Assembly (NCBI GenBank): GCA_017515595.1
Contig: JAFWFL010000040.1
Coordinates: 1-32,397 of the forward strand
Length of the DNA: 32,397 nt
Direction: 5' to 3'
Source of the DNA: Coriobacteriales bacterium
GTDB lineage: Bacteria; Actinomycetota; Coriobacteriia; Coriobacteriales; UMGS124
Part shown: one piece after another, positions 14,252 through 21,265 of the stretch
Layout of the letters: every line of letters starts with the position of its first letter
How positions within the stretch are numbered: position 1 is the stretch's first letter
The notes under the pieces: model-generated
Seen by the model: only the letters and a program-made list of their open reading frames with translations
Databases searched by the model: none
What the model was told of the DNA's origin: nothing
Made by a program: the position numbers and the translations under genes

Positions 14252-14974
14252 ATGGCTTCTCCTGAGCGTCAGCGCACCAAGAAGACACAAAGCGGGACAT
14301 TGCCAAAGATGCCAAAGCTCATGGGTACGGTAGGCTGGATTTTGCTCTACTGCTTTATTATCATTGCCGCTTTATTGGTTGTGGTATTTGTAGTCTTTCT
14401 TGCGACGCCTTCTTCTAAAGCCTTGGCCAGTGAGGCGCCGGTAACCGTTGCCGTTACAGAGCGACGATATCTCACAACCGAGCTTGGCAAAGACCATGCA
14501 ATTCTTCCTTCTGATGTTCCGTCAATGCGTTCGACATATGTAAGCATTAACCGTCTGGCAAATGCAGATACAACACTTGATTCTACGCTTGTTACTTTTA
14601 GAGGGGAAGTTGTGGGAGATGTTCTTGCGTCTGCCACAACCGGTAGACGCTGGATAACAATGCAGGCAACAAGCGGTGCCCGTGCAACCATTGGCGTGCT
14701 TATGGACGAAACCCAAATAGCGCTCATTAGCTACTACGGTGCTTACCAAACCAAGGGTACAACGCTCTTGGTAACGGGTATTTACCGTGTCGCAGATGAT
14801 AACGAAACCGGAACGCTTGATGTAACCGCTTATGATGTGAGCGTTGTTGAAGAAGGCGGATACCATCCGCAAAAGATTACTATATCAAAGCTTTATGTTG
14901 GCGGAGCTTTAACCTTTGTAGGTATTACTCTTTTGGTTGTGGGCTTTGTTTTAAAGAGAAGGAATCGTGCGTGA
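14252..14974 (+). CDS. Unknown membrane protein with two anchors and an outer beta-rich domain
   Basis: I do not recognise this 240-residue protein. It has a basic N-terminus, a transmembrane helix at about 26-50, an exposed domain of about 160 residues, and a second helix at about 215-233 followed by 'KRRNRA'. The exposed domain contains alternating hydrophobic segments such as 'LVTFRGEVVGDV' and 'GTTLLVTGIYRV', which suggest an OB-like beta barrel; this is only an impression. The strongest ribosome-binding site (AGAGGGGG at 14232-14239) is 12 bases before this ATG. It is better placed for ATG 14243, which gives only a seven-codon frame. The gene sits between trkH and rsgA with a GTGA overlap to rsgA. 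Confidence 0.7.
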   Translation: MASPERQRTKKTQSGTLPKMPKLMGTVGWILLYCFIIIAALLVVVFVVFLATPSSKALASEAPVTVAVTERRYLTTELGKDHAILPSDVPSMRSTYVSINRLANADTTLDSTLVTFRGEVVGDVLASATTGRRWITMQATSGARATIGVLMDETQIALISYYGAYQTKGTTLLVTGIYRVADDNETGTLDVTAYDVSVVEEGGYHPQKITISKLYVGGALTFVGITLLVVGFVLKRRNRA

Positions 14975-16164
14975 GTAAACAGTTTAAAGCCAGCGGCACA
15001 CAACGACAAAAAGCATTAAAAAGCTCCTCTGAAAACCAAAATCGCAAGCACAGCCGTACCGTTCTGTATGAATCTATGGATCCTACCATGCAGGAATCCT
15101 TTGAAGACCCATTTACCCCAGCTTATGACGAGATACTTCCGTCAAGTGAGTTTGAGGACAAAGCATACGCATGGTATCGCGAGGAGTTTGCCGAGAATAG
15201 CATGAATCCTCCGGAGGAGTGCGTGCTTGGTTGTGTGGTAAGACTGGACCGGGGATATCCTTTGGTTGTGACAAAACTGCAAACCGTGCGGGCCGAACAC
15301 GCAATCGCCCTGGTAAAGAATGCTGATAAACGCGCGGCAGTTGGAGATTGGGTATTGGTAAGCATTCCGCAAACTCATGACAAAGCCCGCATAGAAGCGA
15401 TTCTACCTCGTAAAAGCGAACTTACTCGTTGGGATGGGAGCAACCGCGGCCAGCGTCAGGTACTTGCCGCCAATCTTGACTTGCTCATTGCCGTGCAGGC
15501 ATTGTCTAAGCGGCCGGTAAGCTGTGAGCGTATTATGCGCTCGTTAGTAATTGCCTATGAAGGTAACATGCAAGCTGCCGTTGTTCTTACAAAAGCAGAT
15601 AGAAGTGCCAATGTAGAAGCTGATGTCAAGCTTGTACGCGCTGCTATTGGTCCAAATATCCCTCTTGTGGTAACAAGCAGTTTGGATAATACGGGAATCG
15701 AACAGGTAAAAGCTCTCGTCCCGTTCCAAACAAGCGCACTTTTACTGGGCGAAAGTGGTGCAGGAAAGTCTACCCTCGTGAATACCATGGTGGGTTCTCC
15801 GGTCTTGGGCACCTCGGCCGTACGCGAGAAAGATGATTTAGGAAGACATACAACTGTTGCTCGTCGTATGCTTAAGCTCCCTGACGCAGGTGTTTTGGCT
15901 GATGCTCCCGGTCTCAGGTCATTGCCGCTTCTCAACGAGGACCGCGGTTTGGCATGCGTATTCCCGGAGATTGATGAACGCATTCACGCATGCCGTTTTA
16001 GAGACTGTTCTCACGGAAGCGAGCCGGGATGTGCGGTACGCGAGGGCGTGGCTTCAGGAGAAGTGGATCCTGACCGCCTTGAACGATACCGTGCTTTTAC
16101 AGCAGAAATGCTTCATAATCGCAGGAGTCTTGATTTGTCGGCTCCGTTATCTTTGACTAAATAG
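14971..16164 (+). CDS. rsgA: Ribosome small-subunit maturation GTPase RsgA
   Basis: RsgA is a circularly permuted GTPase that checks late 30S assembly. The order of motifs shows the permutation: G4 'TKAD' (207-210) comes before G1 'GESGAGKST' (260-268), G2 in 'GRHTT' (291-295) and G3 'DAPG' (311-314). A zinc finger follows with C341, C346, H348 and C354. An OB-fold precedes the GTPase (about 85-145). Its N-terminal extension of about 80 polar residues is longer than in E. coli. It starts with GTG at 14971, overlapping the previous stop. It is the last gene before the large palindrome. Confidence 0.95.
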   Translation: MSKQFKASGTQRQKALKSSSENQNRKHSRTVLYESMDPTMQESFEDPFTPAYDEILPSSEFEDKAYAWYREEFAENSMNPPEECVLGCVVRLDRGYPLVVTKLQTVRAEHAIALVKNADKRAAVGDWVLVSIPQTHDKARIEAILPRKSELTRWDGSNRGQRQVLAANLDLLIAVQALSKRPVSCERIMRSLVIAYEGNMQAAVVLTKADRSANVEADVKLVRAAIGPNIPLVVTSSLDNTGIEQVKALVPFQTSALLLGESGAGKSTLVNTMVGSPVLGTSAVREKDDLGRHTTVARRMLKLPDAGVLADAPGLRSLPLLNEDRGLACVFPEIDERIHACRFRDCSHGSEPGCAVREGVASGEVDPDRLERYRAFTAEMLHNRRSLDLSAPLSLTK

Positions 16165-16171
16165 TTAATAA

Positions 16172-16316
16172 GGAATACTCCAGAACAGTATTGCCTTTAT
16201 TCAAAAAATGGGCTGATACACATACCATCCTTCGCTTTCGCCTCATAAAAACGCTCAGGACGGAATGTGTATCAGCCCATTTTTTGAATAAAGGCAATAC
16301 TGTTCTGGAGTATTCC
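16172..16316. repeat. Perfect 52-bp inverted repeat around a 41-base centre
   Basis: Bases 16172-16223 are the exact reverse complement of 16265-16316. With two single mismatches the pairing continues inward to 16231/16257, giving 60 positions and leaving a 25-base loop. It begins 7 bases after the rsgA stop. I see no coding capacity and no obvious target-site duplication. It could be an extended terminator, a palindromic mobile repeat or an assembly artefact. Confidence 0.95.
16203..16285. terminator. Bidirectional intrinsic terminator at the palindrome core
   Basis: The 14-bp stem from GGGCTGATACACAT (16210-16223) to its complement (16265-16278) is preceded by A6 (16203-16208) and followed by T6 (16280-16285). 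It can therefore act on either strand, although the loop is large for a classical terminator. It would close the rsgA transcript before the Tad operon. Confidence 0.65.
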
Positions 16317-16399
16317 ATACTTACTATATGTTACATAAGATGTGTCGCATTATGATTATCAGATGCGTTATTTATGGGATAGAGCATAGTTTATAAGCT

Positions 16400-16533: not shown

Positions 16534-17223
16534 ATGTCGTTTAAGGTGCGCATTATTGTGGCTAGTGTTTGCGCGGTTCTGGCGATTGCATTTATGGCTG
16601 CATATGCGCTGCAAATTCGTGGGGAGGCAGATACCAAACGTGCTGATGCTATTGCACGGTATGGTGGTGAGACAGTATTTGCATATGTTACAACGCGAAG
16701 TATTACGCGCGGAGAGATGTTTTCTGAGCGTAATGTAGAAGCAGTGGAATGGCTTGTTGACCTGTTGCCTGAGGGGGCTCTGACCAACAAGGAACAGTTT
16801 AAAGGCGCGTATGCGGCATCTGATATTGCCGAGAATACCCCGCTTTCATTGGTAAATCTTGAACAAACCGGAGAGCAGCTAGAGGTGCCTTCGCAGAAGG
16901 TCGCGGTAACCGTTGCCTGCTCACTGGTTGGAACGGTAGGAGGAGCTCTTATTCCTCATGATTTAGTTGACATCTATGTGATCTCACAGGGGAGTGCGGC
17001 GGTCCTCGGTATTGGTATTGAAGTTTTAAAGTGTGATATTCGCGGCAGCTCGCAGGCGTCATCTGTGACACTTGCGGTGGATAGATCCCTGGTGGAATCG
17101 GTTATAGCTGCTTCAACCCTCCAAAGCTTGTATCTTGTTTTGCCCGCGGCTGACGCCGCACTTCAGGAGGGTACCGTTGTGAGTAGCCGCAGCGCAACAG
17201 GTTCGGTTGAGGCTGTTAAATAG
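16534..17223 (+). CDS. cpaB: Flp pilus assembly protein CpaB (SAF domain)
   Basis: CpaB/RcpC proteins are membrane-anchored, outward-facing components of Tad pilus machines. The 229-residue protein has one N-terminal transmembrane helix (about 6-26). A SAF-type domain follows ('VFAYVTTRSITRGEMFSE' and 'PLSLVNL'), then a further beta-rich part ending near residue 210. The ribosome-binding site is a very strong GGGGGAGG just before the ATG. A CCCCC run at 16491-16495 could pair with it in the leader. It is the first gene of the Tad operon. Confidence 0.85.
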   Translation: MSFKVRIIVASVCAVLAIAFMAAYALQIRGEADTKRADAIARYGGETVFAYVTTRSITRGEMFSERNVEAVEWLVDLLPEGALTNKEQFKGAYAASDIAENTPLSLVNLEQTGEQLEVPSQKVAVTVACSLVGTVGGALIPHDLVDIYVISQGSAAVLGIGIEVLKCDIRGSSQASSVTLAVDRSLVESVIAASTLQSLYLVLPAADAALQEGTVVSSRSATGSVEAVK

Positions 17224-17257
17224 TTCGTTAGTTGCCCTTGCCAAGGAGAGGATTACT

Positions 17258-18973
17258 ATGATGAGATCCACAAAATGGTTATTGTGCTGCGGCCCTCACG
17301 AGTACCTTGTCTGTGCAGAAGCTCTCGTTAAAGCAGGGCATGTGGGAGGCGTTGAGTGGGAACCGGTTGCTGCCCGCGCAGCCTCACGAATTTCGCAGCT
17401 CAAACATGAAGTTCCTTACATTTTAGTGGCTGACGGTATTTATGATATGCATACACAAAATGCCGTTAATACCTTTGGTAACCTTGTGCAAAACCCCAGA
17501 CGTATAGTGCATGTTGTTGACGATCCATTGTATGAACGGAATGCATGCTGTGGTGTTACCGTGGTAGGTATAGTTGAGCTTTTTGATTTGCTGCAGACGT
17601 TTGAGGCAGATGATGAAGGCGATGATTCTCACGGCTGTTGGGATGGTGACCCGGTGCCTGACGCCGTTCTGGATGATATCTATGTTTGTGAACTGCCGGA
17701 AGCTCTGGTAAACGAAGAGCTCAACATGCTTATTACCCGGGGGGCATCAGGTGGATCAAACCGTTTCTCTCGGGAGAACGGTTTGACACCAAAAATATAC
17801 GGTACATTCGCAGCCAGGGAAGAAACCGAGTCTAATGCGGCTCATTTGCGGGGAATCAGAGCTTCGGGAATGCTTTCGCGTATACCATCCTGTTCAACAG
17901 ATGCTGACGCAGTATCTGAAACAGGTATTCCCGGGGCTAAACAGAACGATACCTACATACCCAAACATTCAATTTCTGTGGTTAGTGAAGCTGATTCTGT
18001 TGAGATAGTTGATGCTCAGCCGAGTGCATGTATTCATTTGGGATTGTCTCCCGGTTCATATCCGGTTATTCGGGCAGAGAATGTCCTTGCTCAGTCTGGT
18101 GATATACATATCCCTACCATTTGTATGGCATCGGCACGCGGAGGTGTGGGTAAGAGCTCAATTGCGACACTTGCGGCATTAACGCTTGCCCGGGAAGGTT
18201 TTGCAGTCGCTTTAATTGATTTAGATTTTCAGTTTGGCACGTGTTTGGGATATCTGGGTTCAGAAGAAACTGACGGTCTTTTTGATGCGGGTCAGATTCC
18301 CTCCGAGATTCTTTTGGACAACCGCACGCTTGCGCGTTGCAGATGTAATCCTGAACCGGGACTTGCAGGTTATGAATTCTGCAGCCAGCCCGAGTATGCC
18401 GAGCTTTTGGGACCGCTTGCAAAAGATCTGATTCTTGCGGCATCGGCACAGGCAGACATTGCGATTGTAGATTTGCCTTGCGGAGTAGGAGAAGCTGCTG
18501 CACAAGCGTTTGAAATCGCCGATAGGTGCCTTTTGGTGTCTGACAGACGTGCTTTGGCCTTGGAGTCACTTGGAGCTCAGCATGCATTATGTGTCCGCAT
18601 GGGTATTCCTCGTACCAAGCTTATCTCTGTTATCAACAGATGTGATCCGCGTCATCGGGATGAAAGCTTTTTCTCACGGGCAAGTTTTGAGCTTCAAACA
18701 CCGCAGATTCTCCGTGTAGCTGACGGTGGTTCAGAAGTCGCGCAGCTCATGTCTATTGGCAGCGCGGGCGAGCTTGTAGCTCTCCGCAACAAGTTTGCTC
18801 TCTCCGCAGCAGATCTTATACATACTATCTGCGCTGATTTGGGATGTGCTCTATCACAGACCGGAAGCGGAAGGTTAACATTGGCGGCAATGCAGCTTGC
18901 TCCGTCAAGACAAGGTAAGAGCAATCGGTTTTGGCAACCTCAAAAGAGCAGACAACTTCTGAGCCAAGTCTGA
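17258..18973 (+). CDS. cpaE: CpaE/TadZ-like MinD-family ATPase for pilus localisation
   Basis: CpaE/TadZ proteins position the Tad machine and belong to the ParA/MinD ATPases. This 571-residue protein has a receiver-like N-terminal part (about 1-115), a long polar linker (about 115-280) and the ATPase domain. The deviant P-loop is 'ASARGGVGKSS' (291-301), with Arg294 where ParA/MinD proteins usually have Lys. The 'DLDFQFGT' segment (321-328) is the second Asp motif. AAGGAGAG at 17243-17250 supports ATG 17258; a following ATG at 17261 is equally possible. The linker is low in conservation and its DNA contains a strong hairpin. Confidence 0.85.
   Translation: MMRSTKWLLCCGPHEYLVCAEALVKAGHVGGVEWEPVAARAASRISQLKHEVPYILVADGIYDMHTQNAVNTFGNLVQNPRRIVHVVDDPLYERNACCGVTVVGIVELFDLLQTFEADDEGDDSHGCWDGDPVPDAVLDDIYVCELPEALVNEELNMLITRGASGGSNRFSRENGLTPKIYGTFAAREETESNAAHLRGIRASGMLSRIPSCSTDADAVSETGIPGAKQNDTYIPKHSISVVSEADSVEIVDAQPSACIHLGLSPGSYPVIRAENVLAQSGDIHIPTICMASARGGVGKSSIATLAALTLAREGFAVALIDLDFQFGTCLGYLGSEETDGLFDAGQIPSEILLDNRTLARCRCNPEPGLAGYEFCSQPEYAELLGPLAKDLILAASAQADIAIVDLPCGVGEAAAQAFEIADRCLLVSDRRALALESLGAQHALCVRMGIPRTKLISVINRCDPRHRDESFFSRASFELQTPQILRVADGGSEVAQLMSIGSAGELVALRNKFALSAADLIHTICADLGCALSQTGSGRLTLAAMQLAPSRQGKSNRFWQPQKSRQLLSQV
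17756..17786 (+). repeat. Strong hairpin inside cpaE linker
   Basis: TCAAACCGTT (17756-17765) is the exact reverse complement of 17777-17786. After one bulged T, CTC (17767-17769) pairs with GAG (17774-17776), leaving a four-base loop TCGG. No T-run follows, so it is not an intrinsic terminator. Confidence 0.8.
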
Positions 18974-19022: not shown

Positions 19023-20348
19023 GTGTCGGTAATGGAACGAGTTGCAAAGAATGCCGGTACCCACCTAAGCGGAGGCCGCTGGTCTCGTTTGCGCTCGAAT
19101 CTGCGTGAGGCCCTGGTTGTAAGACTGGGGTATCGCGAAATTGCCCGCATAACAGATGTTCATGATACTGAGCGGGCAAAAGCAGAGCTCAGCGTGACCC
19201 TGTCTGCTATCTTAAATGAAGGCGGTTTTGAGTCAATGACCGAGACCGAGCGCTCTATGCTTATCCAGGAGGTGATAGATGATGTTGTGGGTCTCGGCCC
19301 TCTCGAAGCATTTATGAATGATGATTCGGTGACTGAGGTTATGGTAAACGGCACGCAGTCGCTCTTTTATGAACAGGGCGGACGTCTCATCCCGGCTCAG
19401 CGTGTTTTTGATAATGATGAACAGATACGTGCGGTTATAGATCGGATTATTGCGCCTTTGGGAAGACGTATTGATGAACAAAGCCCCATTGTTAATGCGC
19501 GTCTTAAAAACGGATACCGAGTAAATGCTGTAATTCCACCCATTGCAATAGACGGTCCGGCCGTGACCATTCGTAAGTTCTCGCATCAGGTGATGACCCT
19601 CGATGCGCTTGTGGAACAGAATGCAATGCCTTCCTGGTATGCGTGGCTTTTGCGTATGGCGGTAAAAAGCAGACAAGATATAGCCGTAGTAGGAGGTACC
19701 GGCTCAGGGAAAACAACCATTCTTAATGCATTGTCCTGCGAAATCGATACCGGGGAGCGCATTGTGACTATTGAAGACTCGGCTGAGCTGAAGTTCCATA
19801 ATCACCCCCATGTGGTTCGTCTTGAAGCTCGTGACGCATCAATTGAAGGCACCGGAGTTATTACCATCCGTGATTTGGTAAAAAACGCATTGCGCATGAG
19901 GCCGGACCGCATTGTTGTGGGAGAGGTACGTGGTGGCGAGGCTATTGATATGCTTCAGGCAATGAATACCGGGCATGACGGTTCGCTTACGACTCTTCAT
20001 GCGGGAACCCCTGAAGAAGCGATTCTGCGTTTGGTTCTTTTGGCACGTTTTGGTATTGATTTGCCGGCATCTATTATAGAAAGCCAGGTTGCAACCGCGC
20101 TTGATCTCATTGTTATGACTATGCGTCTTCCCACGGGAGAGCGGGTTGTGGGAGACCTGAGTGTATGTAAGCGCTCTCGAGAGGGGCTTGTAGAATTGCA
20201 AAGTCTGGCAGTATTTCATGAGTCTTCACATACCTGGGAACTTGTAAGTGAACCGGGCTTTATTGAGCAAGCCGTACATTTGGGTCTGGTAGGTCGGGAG
20301 GAAGCAGAATCATGGCTTACATCTGCGCGTACACGGCTTGCATCCTGA
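19023..20348 (+). CDS. cpaF: Tad pilus assembly ATPase CpaF/TadA
   Basis: This is the hexameric secretion ATPase that powers Tad pilus extension. The 441-residue protein shows a conserved N-terminal domain ('[20 protein letters not shown]', 91-110), Walker A 'GGTGSGKT' (224-231), an Asp box 'TIEDSAEL' (249-256), Walker B around Glu301 ('IVVGEVRG') and a His box '[12 protein letters not shown]' (316-327). GTG 19023 is chosen because AAAGGAG at 19008-19014 is eight bases upstream. A 49-base gap separates it from cpaE. Confidence 0.95.
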
Positions 20349-21265
20349 TGGGGGTTTCTGTTATTACGGTAGTCTTAGGTATACAGAAGCAACATGTACA
20401 AAGCATTACTCAAAAGGTTTCGAGGCCCCGGCAATTAAAAGAACGGTTCTATGCTTTGGTGGAATTATTGGGCCACAAGCCGCAACTCATAAAGTTATCG
20501 CGTCGCGAATTCGTGGAGCCGCTGCTTAAGCGCTTACATGAGATGCTGACAGAATATGGGTTCGAATTTACATGTTTTGGAAGCCTGGCTTTTGTCTTTA
20601 TATTGACCATAAGCTTCATGCTGGCCGGAGTTTTTATAAGCCATTCTTTATTTGGGATACCTGTTGGATTGGTATTGTGCGCCACCCTTTTGGTAACGCT
20701 TGTAGGGAGGTATGAATCACGCTTACATAAACAAGAAATCGAACAAATGCCTGAGGTTTTGCGCATACTTTCTGCCGCTTTGGGAGCCGGTAAATCATTG
20801 CCCCAGGCAATTGAATACGCAGGACAAAACCTTACCGAGCCGTTTGGATCGCAGTTTTTGCAGGCTTCGTTTGAGATTAAGGGAGGTTGCTCGGTAGAAG
20901 AAGCGGTTGATGCTCTTTGTGGCAGAGTGCATGCACCGGGAATCGCTTTACTTGCTACCGCACTTACTATTTCGCAAAGAACGGGATCGCCCTTGGATGA
21001 ACTGTTAATGAGAACAGCTCGTATGGTTACTTCAAATGTAGCGCTGCGCAGAGAGCTTGATGTAAAGACTTCTCAAGCACGGTTATCCGCAAAGGTTGTC
21101 TCGGTGATACCTGTTTTACTTGCTGCCGTATTGACGCTTTTATCACCTGACTATAGGGCAGGGTTGTCTACATCAATAGGAAGCACAAGCATATGCATTG
21201 CAATTCTGATGGATGTGCTGGCTCTTTTGATAATCAGATCGCTTATGAACAGGAGCGTATTATGA
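20312..21265 (+). CDS. tadB: Tad inner-membrane platform protein TadB (T2SS F family)
   Basis: TadB forms the membrane platform of the pilus motor with TadC. The 317-residue protein has an N-terminal helix, two central hydrophobic segments (about 90-135), and a cytoplasmic type II secretion F domain. That domain begins at about residue 145 with 'QMPEVLRILSAALGAGKSLPQAI' spread over two helices. C-terminal membrane helices follow. It overlaps the end of cpaF by 37 bases and its ribosome-binding site (GGGAGGA near 20297) lies inside cpaF. Confidence 0.9.
   Translation: MAYICAYTACILMGVSVITVVLGIQKQHVQSITQKVSRPRQLKERFYALVELLGHKPQLIKLSRREFVEPLLKRLHEMLTEYGFEFTCFGSLAFVFILTISFMLAGVFISHSLFGIPVGLVLCATLLVTLVGRYESRLHKQEIEQMPEVLRILSAALGAGKSLPQAIEYAGQNLTEPFGSQFLQASFEIKGGCSVEEAVDALCGRVHAPGIALLATALTISQRTGSPLDELLMRTARMVTSNVALRRELDVKTSQARLSAKVVSVIPVLLAAVLTLLSPDYRAGLSTSIGSTSICIAILMDVLALLIIRSLMNRSVL

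Follow-up and report, generated by a model that had tools for sequence, protein, structure and literature searches.

A dispersed REPIN-like hairpin family with a conserved center and apparently rewritten, copy-specific arms in a Coriobacteriales genome

The genome of a Coriobacteriales bacterium (assembly GCA_017515595.1) carries a dispersed family of hairpin-forming palindromes that is real and well supported, and whose layout is unusual: a conserved center is flanked by arms that appear to have been rewritten. The best explanation, which we regard as fairly probable from the pattern of sequence changes, is that of a REPIN-like element whose arms would be written and kept identical by hairpin-templated synthesis, i.e., template switching.

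The palindrome between rsgA and the Tad-like genes

The window (the whole 32,397-nucleotide stretch analyzed, from contig JAFWFL010000040.1) contains a perfect 52-bp inverted repeat, exactly where the original prediction had placed it (Table 1). In an inverted-repeat search the arms extend to 78 nt each, with 90% complementarity and a spacer of 11 nt. The earlier description of some 60 positions with two mismatches was nearly right, the actual figure being 3 mismatches in the 62 columns outside the innermost 10. Chance can be excluded because the second-longest perfect inverted repeat within the window is of only 16 bp (spacer at most 150), and we hold the anatomy of the palindrome and its exact coordinates with high confidence. 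The predicted folds are very stable (-105 kcal/mol on one strand, -115 kcal/mol on the other), and the palindrome could extrude as a hairpin, as had been suggested. The arms run tens of bp past the T tract, which upholds the view that they are far longer than a terminator needs. No Rfam family reaches its gathering score at the palindrome, the only such matches in the window being two tRNAs elsewhere; miRNA models that score below their cut-offs at the palindrome were rejected as hairpin noise.

Table 1. Features of the window in and around the palindrome
Feature	Position	Strand	Remarks
Left arm, rsgA side	16161..16238	.	Matches the right arm perfectly over 16172-16223; its outer part occurs in the window copy alone
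Right arm, Tad side	16250..16327	.	Repeats the left arm in inverted form; free of mismatches over 16265-16316
Family center GAGCGTTTTTATGAGGCGAAAGCG	16233..16256	-	Near-invariant, asymmetric; read on the minus strand; contains predicted hairpin CGUUUUU/GAAAGCG
Covariance model R1 extent	16200..16288	-	89 positions: center plus 32-pair stem; ~50 genome places
A6 tract + GGGCTG, half of a terminator-like stem	16203..16215	.	Sequence, alignment A2
Partner of this half-stem, CAGCCC + A + T6	16273..16285		
rsgA (RsgA GTPase, PF03193)	14971..16164	+	Stop codon abuts the left arm at its outer edge
cpaB/rcpC	16534..17223	+	First of the Tad-like pilus genes
ParA-like	17207..18973		Tad-like gene after cpaB/rcpC
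T2SSE	19023..20348		Tad-like gene after cpaB/rcpC
T2SSF	20312..21265		Tad-like gene after cpaB/rcpC

About fifty copies share one center

A search of the genome (3.3 Mb in 134 contigs) with the whole palindrome recovers about 40 places, nearly all of which match its middle only. A covariance model (R1) built from 28 copies, together with a pattern scan, raises the tally to ~50 places at which the near-invariant center GAGCGTTTTTATRAGGCGARAGCG (~24 nt) recurs; many copies lie at contig ends and the true number may exceed this. These places confirm the dispersed palindromic repeat that the original prediction had entertained. The search that it proposed, with the arm sequence, would have missed the family, since the outer arms of the window copy are unique to it and match nowhere else, whereas the center does.

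DNA searches did not find the element in 59 relatives, and the covariance model gave only five weak, gapped matches near 30 bits among 298 further genomes from this order, which we judge to be chance. The exact and degenerate center patterns had zero matches in the public genome_contigs and viral_contigs collections, which may not include this genome's own records, and plasmids yielded a single weak 31-base match. We also considered an autonomous partner with half of the center and rejected it: no separate half sites occur, and the pattern matches are the known copies.

Arms agree within copies and differ between them

When oriented on the center, each copy has its own inverted arms of ~30-110 bp, which end abruptly and share neither a terminal sequence nor a fixed length. 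In 34 copies with 1765 outer-arm columns in total, 48 columns (2.7%) are mismatched within a copy, about half of the copies having no mismatch at all, while related arms such as those of L009 and L025 differ by 17-23% between copies and agree inside each. This low divergence within copies against the high divergence between them is, as read from the alignments, the pattern of concerted change within a copy.

The 28-copy alignment bears this out at the level of individual pairs, 95.2% of which form, as opposed to 75.2% in shuffled and 42-52% in slid alignments. The outer 24 stem pairs display 177 double changes against 5 single-side changes (summed by hand). Such changes do not look like stepwise compensation via G-U pairs; they would instead be the signature expected of an arm copied from the other arm after a short inner stem anneals. 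In the innermost 8 pairs certain mismatches are fixed: 34 of their 224 cells are unpaired, against 14 of 672 in the outer stem. This is what would be expected if the inner bases prime the copying. The covariation establishes pairing, from which the folded structure itself is predicted. Separately, one copy (L156:142-300, G000:C132) has in its left arm a short tandem duplication, with CTCTTAAAACGGGG repeated, that is absent from the right arm.

Host sequence is found in the arms

The clearest view of where arms may come from is provided by L091, in which convergent maf and glycosyltransferase genes both end in IFKFN*, with their last codons and stops lying in the two outer arms. In relatives the glycosyltransferase itself terminates in KFN, and in most of the 40 genomes examined its alignment runs through to the final residue, while the Maf domain stops at residue 186 of 197, short of the IFKFN tail. 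Hence, the glycosyltransferase side is native and the tail of maf is the inverted copy. By this comparison, L091 is the single clear case of one flank having been copied, inverted, onto the other side. A stretch of ~15 nt in the middle differs between its two arms, which therefore likely changed afterwards or took several events to form.

A second case is suggested by L006, at a contig end, where the terminator beside rplQ (a gene named by eye) is present in both arms; the direction of copying is thus shown in L091 and suggested in L006. At L035/L078 (G000:C47:27439-28068), an ORF of 210 residues, counted from its ATG, contains the entire palindrome in frame. This ORF sits between lexA-like and nrdR-like genes (named by eye), a yneA-like position, and extends further at the N-terminus than in the relatives G047 and G051. 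Its N-terminal part is not conserved among the homologs that were compared in search of the native arm. The family also shows how the C-terminus of a protein can be altered by a non-coding hairpin next to its gene.

A model for the writing of arms

We propose an element in which copy-specific inverted arms enclose a conserved, asymmetric center of ~24-47 nt; in single-stranded DNA, center and arms would form a hairpin together. As a replicating or repairing strand crosses the element, a few bases of the inner stem could anneal, and the 3' end would then copy the arm already made, plus its flank, before synthesis goes back to the normal template. The outcome would be an inverted copy of one flank on the other side and, later, arms that are held identical; no host function is needed. 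In parts of the family, entire palindromes may also have spread, some of which have REP ends of the RAYT type, and RAYT transposases may move them. That template switching is the copying step in this genome is something we infer from arms that are near-identical within a locus and different between loci, from the copying of the other flank by one arm in L091 (and, as suggested, in L006), and from the residual mismatches in the innermost stem. Template switching is known in E. coli to make and perfect inverted repeats and has been invoked for the evolution of hairpins (PMC7202029, PMC8794818). It does not account for the center reaching new sites, which counts against the model, and our confidence in the mechanism overall is moderate.

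We also tentatively entertain, with clearly less confidence than the template-switching model, the idea that the center (24-47 nt) is a mobile module causing inverted duplication of neighboring host DNA on arrival, the arms being a product and not a part of the element. Were this so, every insertion would build its own palindrome and could rewrite adjacent gene ends.

Palindromes and the presence of SbcCD

Neither SbcC nor SbcD, which form the hairpin nuclease of E. coli (PMC3315005), was detected in the genome, which is 97.7% complete; such long palindromes would probably be able to persist for this reason. In samples from related genomes, with N runs left out (they gave false repeats in G002 and G003), perfect inverted repeats of at least 25 bp number 22 in 1000 kb from seven SbcCD-lacking genomes, four of which have them, and 0 in 594 kb from six SbcCD-bearing ones. 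Three genomes lacking SbcCD (G030, G032 and G013) have zero such repeats, as does G001, a close relative with ambiguous SbcCD status, in 200 kb. The link between absence of SbcCD and persistence of palindromes is suggestive, based as it is on 13 related genomes with three lacking ones free of repeats.

G031, from another family of the same order and with SbcCD not detected, contains palindromes with 26-35-bp perfect arms at L183, L185, L186 and L187. Three of these four are built around a CGACCTGGGNAAACGC-like center and possibly represent a similar family.

Relationship to REPINs and Y1 transposases

The foremost alternative, which we consider unlikely but worth weighing, is that of a REPIN-type element moved as a full palindrome by RAYT (Y1) transposases, the arms being identical either on account of the copies being recent or from their being made via a filled-in single-stranded half-element. 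The genome does code for six Y1_Tnp proteins (PF01797) over the cut-off, which are RAYT-like, and has 89 GGGGACGGTTCT-like sites (at most 1 mismatch) versus 16 for the reversed control. Moreover, REPs occur in the outer arms of several family copies, and there are subfamilies whose arms are shared by descent. The family further resembles REP-RAYT systems (PMC3116915, PMC2817692) in consisting of intergenic, dispersed hairpins in tens of copies, with compensatory changes across the two sides.

Against this stands the absence of a REP from the window copy and many others, which thus lack the two inverted, conserved REP ends of a REPIN, and of any common outer-end sequence or fixed length. The conservation is also the reverse of that in REPINs, whose ends are conserved and whose middle is less so (PMC3116915): here the middle is near-invariant and the ends are variable and copy-specific, on arms that are longer and nearly perfect. 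The ends of host coding sequences within the arms of L091 are likewise not expected from such transposition. We classify the family as REPIN-like and not as REPINs, since these two defining features fail.

The genome additionally carries REPIN-like palindromes with GGGGACGG-type REPs that lack the family center. Their arms are likewise near-perfect and copy-specific, and the arm-homogenizing process therefore appears to be general in this genome and not special to the center. Other palindromes of this genome are of note in their own right. Directly after a Y1 gene, of which it is a candidate REPIN, lies a 48-bp perfect palindrome carrying a GGGGTCAGG repeat (L055:1888-1992, G000:C16). Another group (L138, L145, L149, L151, L155, L157) has GCCGAGAAACCC- and CCTGGCCTTTT-like centers and arms such as GTGCAAGTTTTGACGGG or ACAAATTTTGAATGTGTGACCA. 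L114:665-905 (G000:C66) is a nested palindrome without the family center, with three TGGGACGGTTCT repeats per side and 49-bp perfect outer arms, and L139:13795-14121 (G000:C79) is an inverted repeat that is perfect over 61 bp and has a spacer of 205 bp.

Genomic placement and transcription termination

By hand count, the genes neighboring the copies are convergent in 9 cases, divergent in 6 and codirectional in 15 (7 sense and 8 antisense), a count that omits L006 and a few contig-end copies wrongly mapped to longer loci. The copies have no preference for gene 3' ends or for a strand, which argues for an element acting at the level of DNA over a terminator or transcribed motif. The window copy does lie downstream of a gene; across the family there is no such bias. 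The original prediction had the palindrome guarding the Tad operon, a role that does not survive the presence of the same element at ~50 unrelated places, which also rules out a unique terminator.

It had also seen a bidirectional terminator in the core. Generalized to the family, this becomes the proposal that the copies are bidirectional terminators or RNA-processing hairpins kept perfect by selection on pairing, which we think improbable. An A-tract, GGGGC stem and T-tract do recur in the arms of most copies, and the fold is very stable. However, the scan for intrinsic terminators is empty at the palindrome, where a GC stem and a T tract are present but the loop is long, and this part of the prediction is weakly supported. 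The lack of 3'-end bias, the extension of the arms beyond the T tract, the near absence of single-step intermediates and the copy in frame inside an ORF all tell against the family being maintained in this manner. Local termination of transcription may be a by-product of the element.

Other origins of the palindromes

Insertion of the center into the loops of pre-existing palindromes would account for a constant center with variable arms, but we deem this very unlikely: natural palindromes with perfect arms of 30-110 bp are too rare, perfect repeats of at least 25 bp without the center occurring at ~20 per Mb (400-kb sample of the own genome), several of them REP-type palindromes. An assembly or library fold-back artefact, which several copies at contig ends (e.g., C114, less safe in this respect) might bring to mind, is the least credible of all, because ~34 two-arm copies, nearly all mid-contig, combine different unique flanks with matching arms, unlike fold-back reads, and the ~30 mid-contig copies with two distinct flanks have small copy-specific arm differences and shared subfamilies.

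Significance and comparison with known systems

With ~50 long palindromes whose arms are apparently rewritten from neighboring DNA, a single genome here supplies its own natural replicates. Two questions become testable with them: can long bacterial hairpins be built and maintained by template switching, and do palindromic repeats spread once SbcCD is lost?

Rickettsia palindromic elements are dispersed palindromes of ~100-150 bp that can be inserted in frame. In the present family one of ~50 copies is inserted in frame inside an ORF, in-frame insertion into protein genes thus not characterizing it, and the arms are copy-specific. The hairpin elements of sponge mitochondria (PMC2800124) are dispersed and mostly intergenic, as here, but combine conserved stems with variable loops, the reverse of the arrangement that we describe. 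The coding palindromes of Nematomorpha mitochondria (PMC6649704), as presented in the available part of that account, are many, long and perfect, with arms that stay identical and template switching as the proposed cause; they differ in being mitochondrial and within coding sequence, and that part does not mention a shared center. Closest to the template-switching model is quasipalindrome correction (PMC7202029, PMC8794818), in which arms are likewise perfected or extended by copying the other side, with leftover mismatches near the start of the hairpin. Those are single, mostly short events, whereas here ~50 dispersed copies share one center, with arms of 30-110 bp and, in one instance, a copied gene end.
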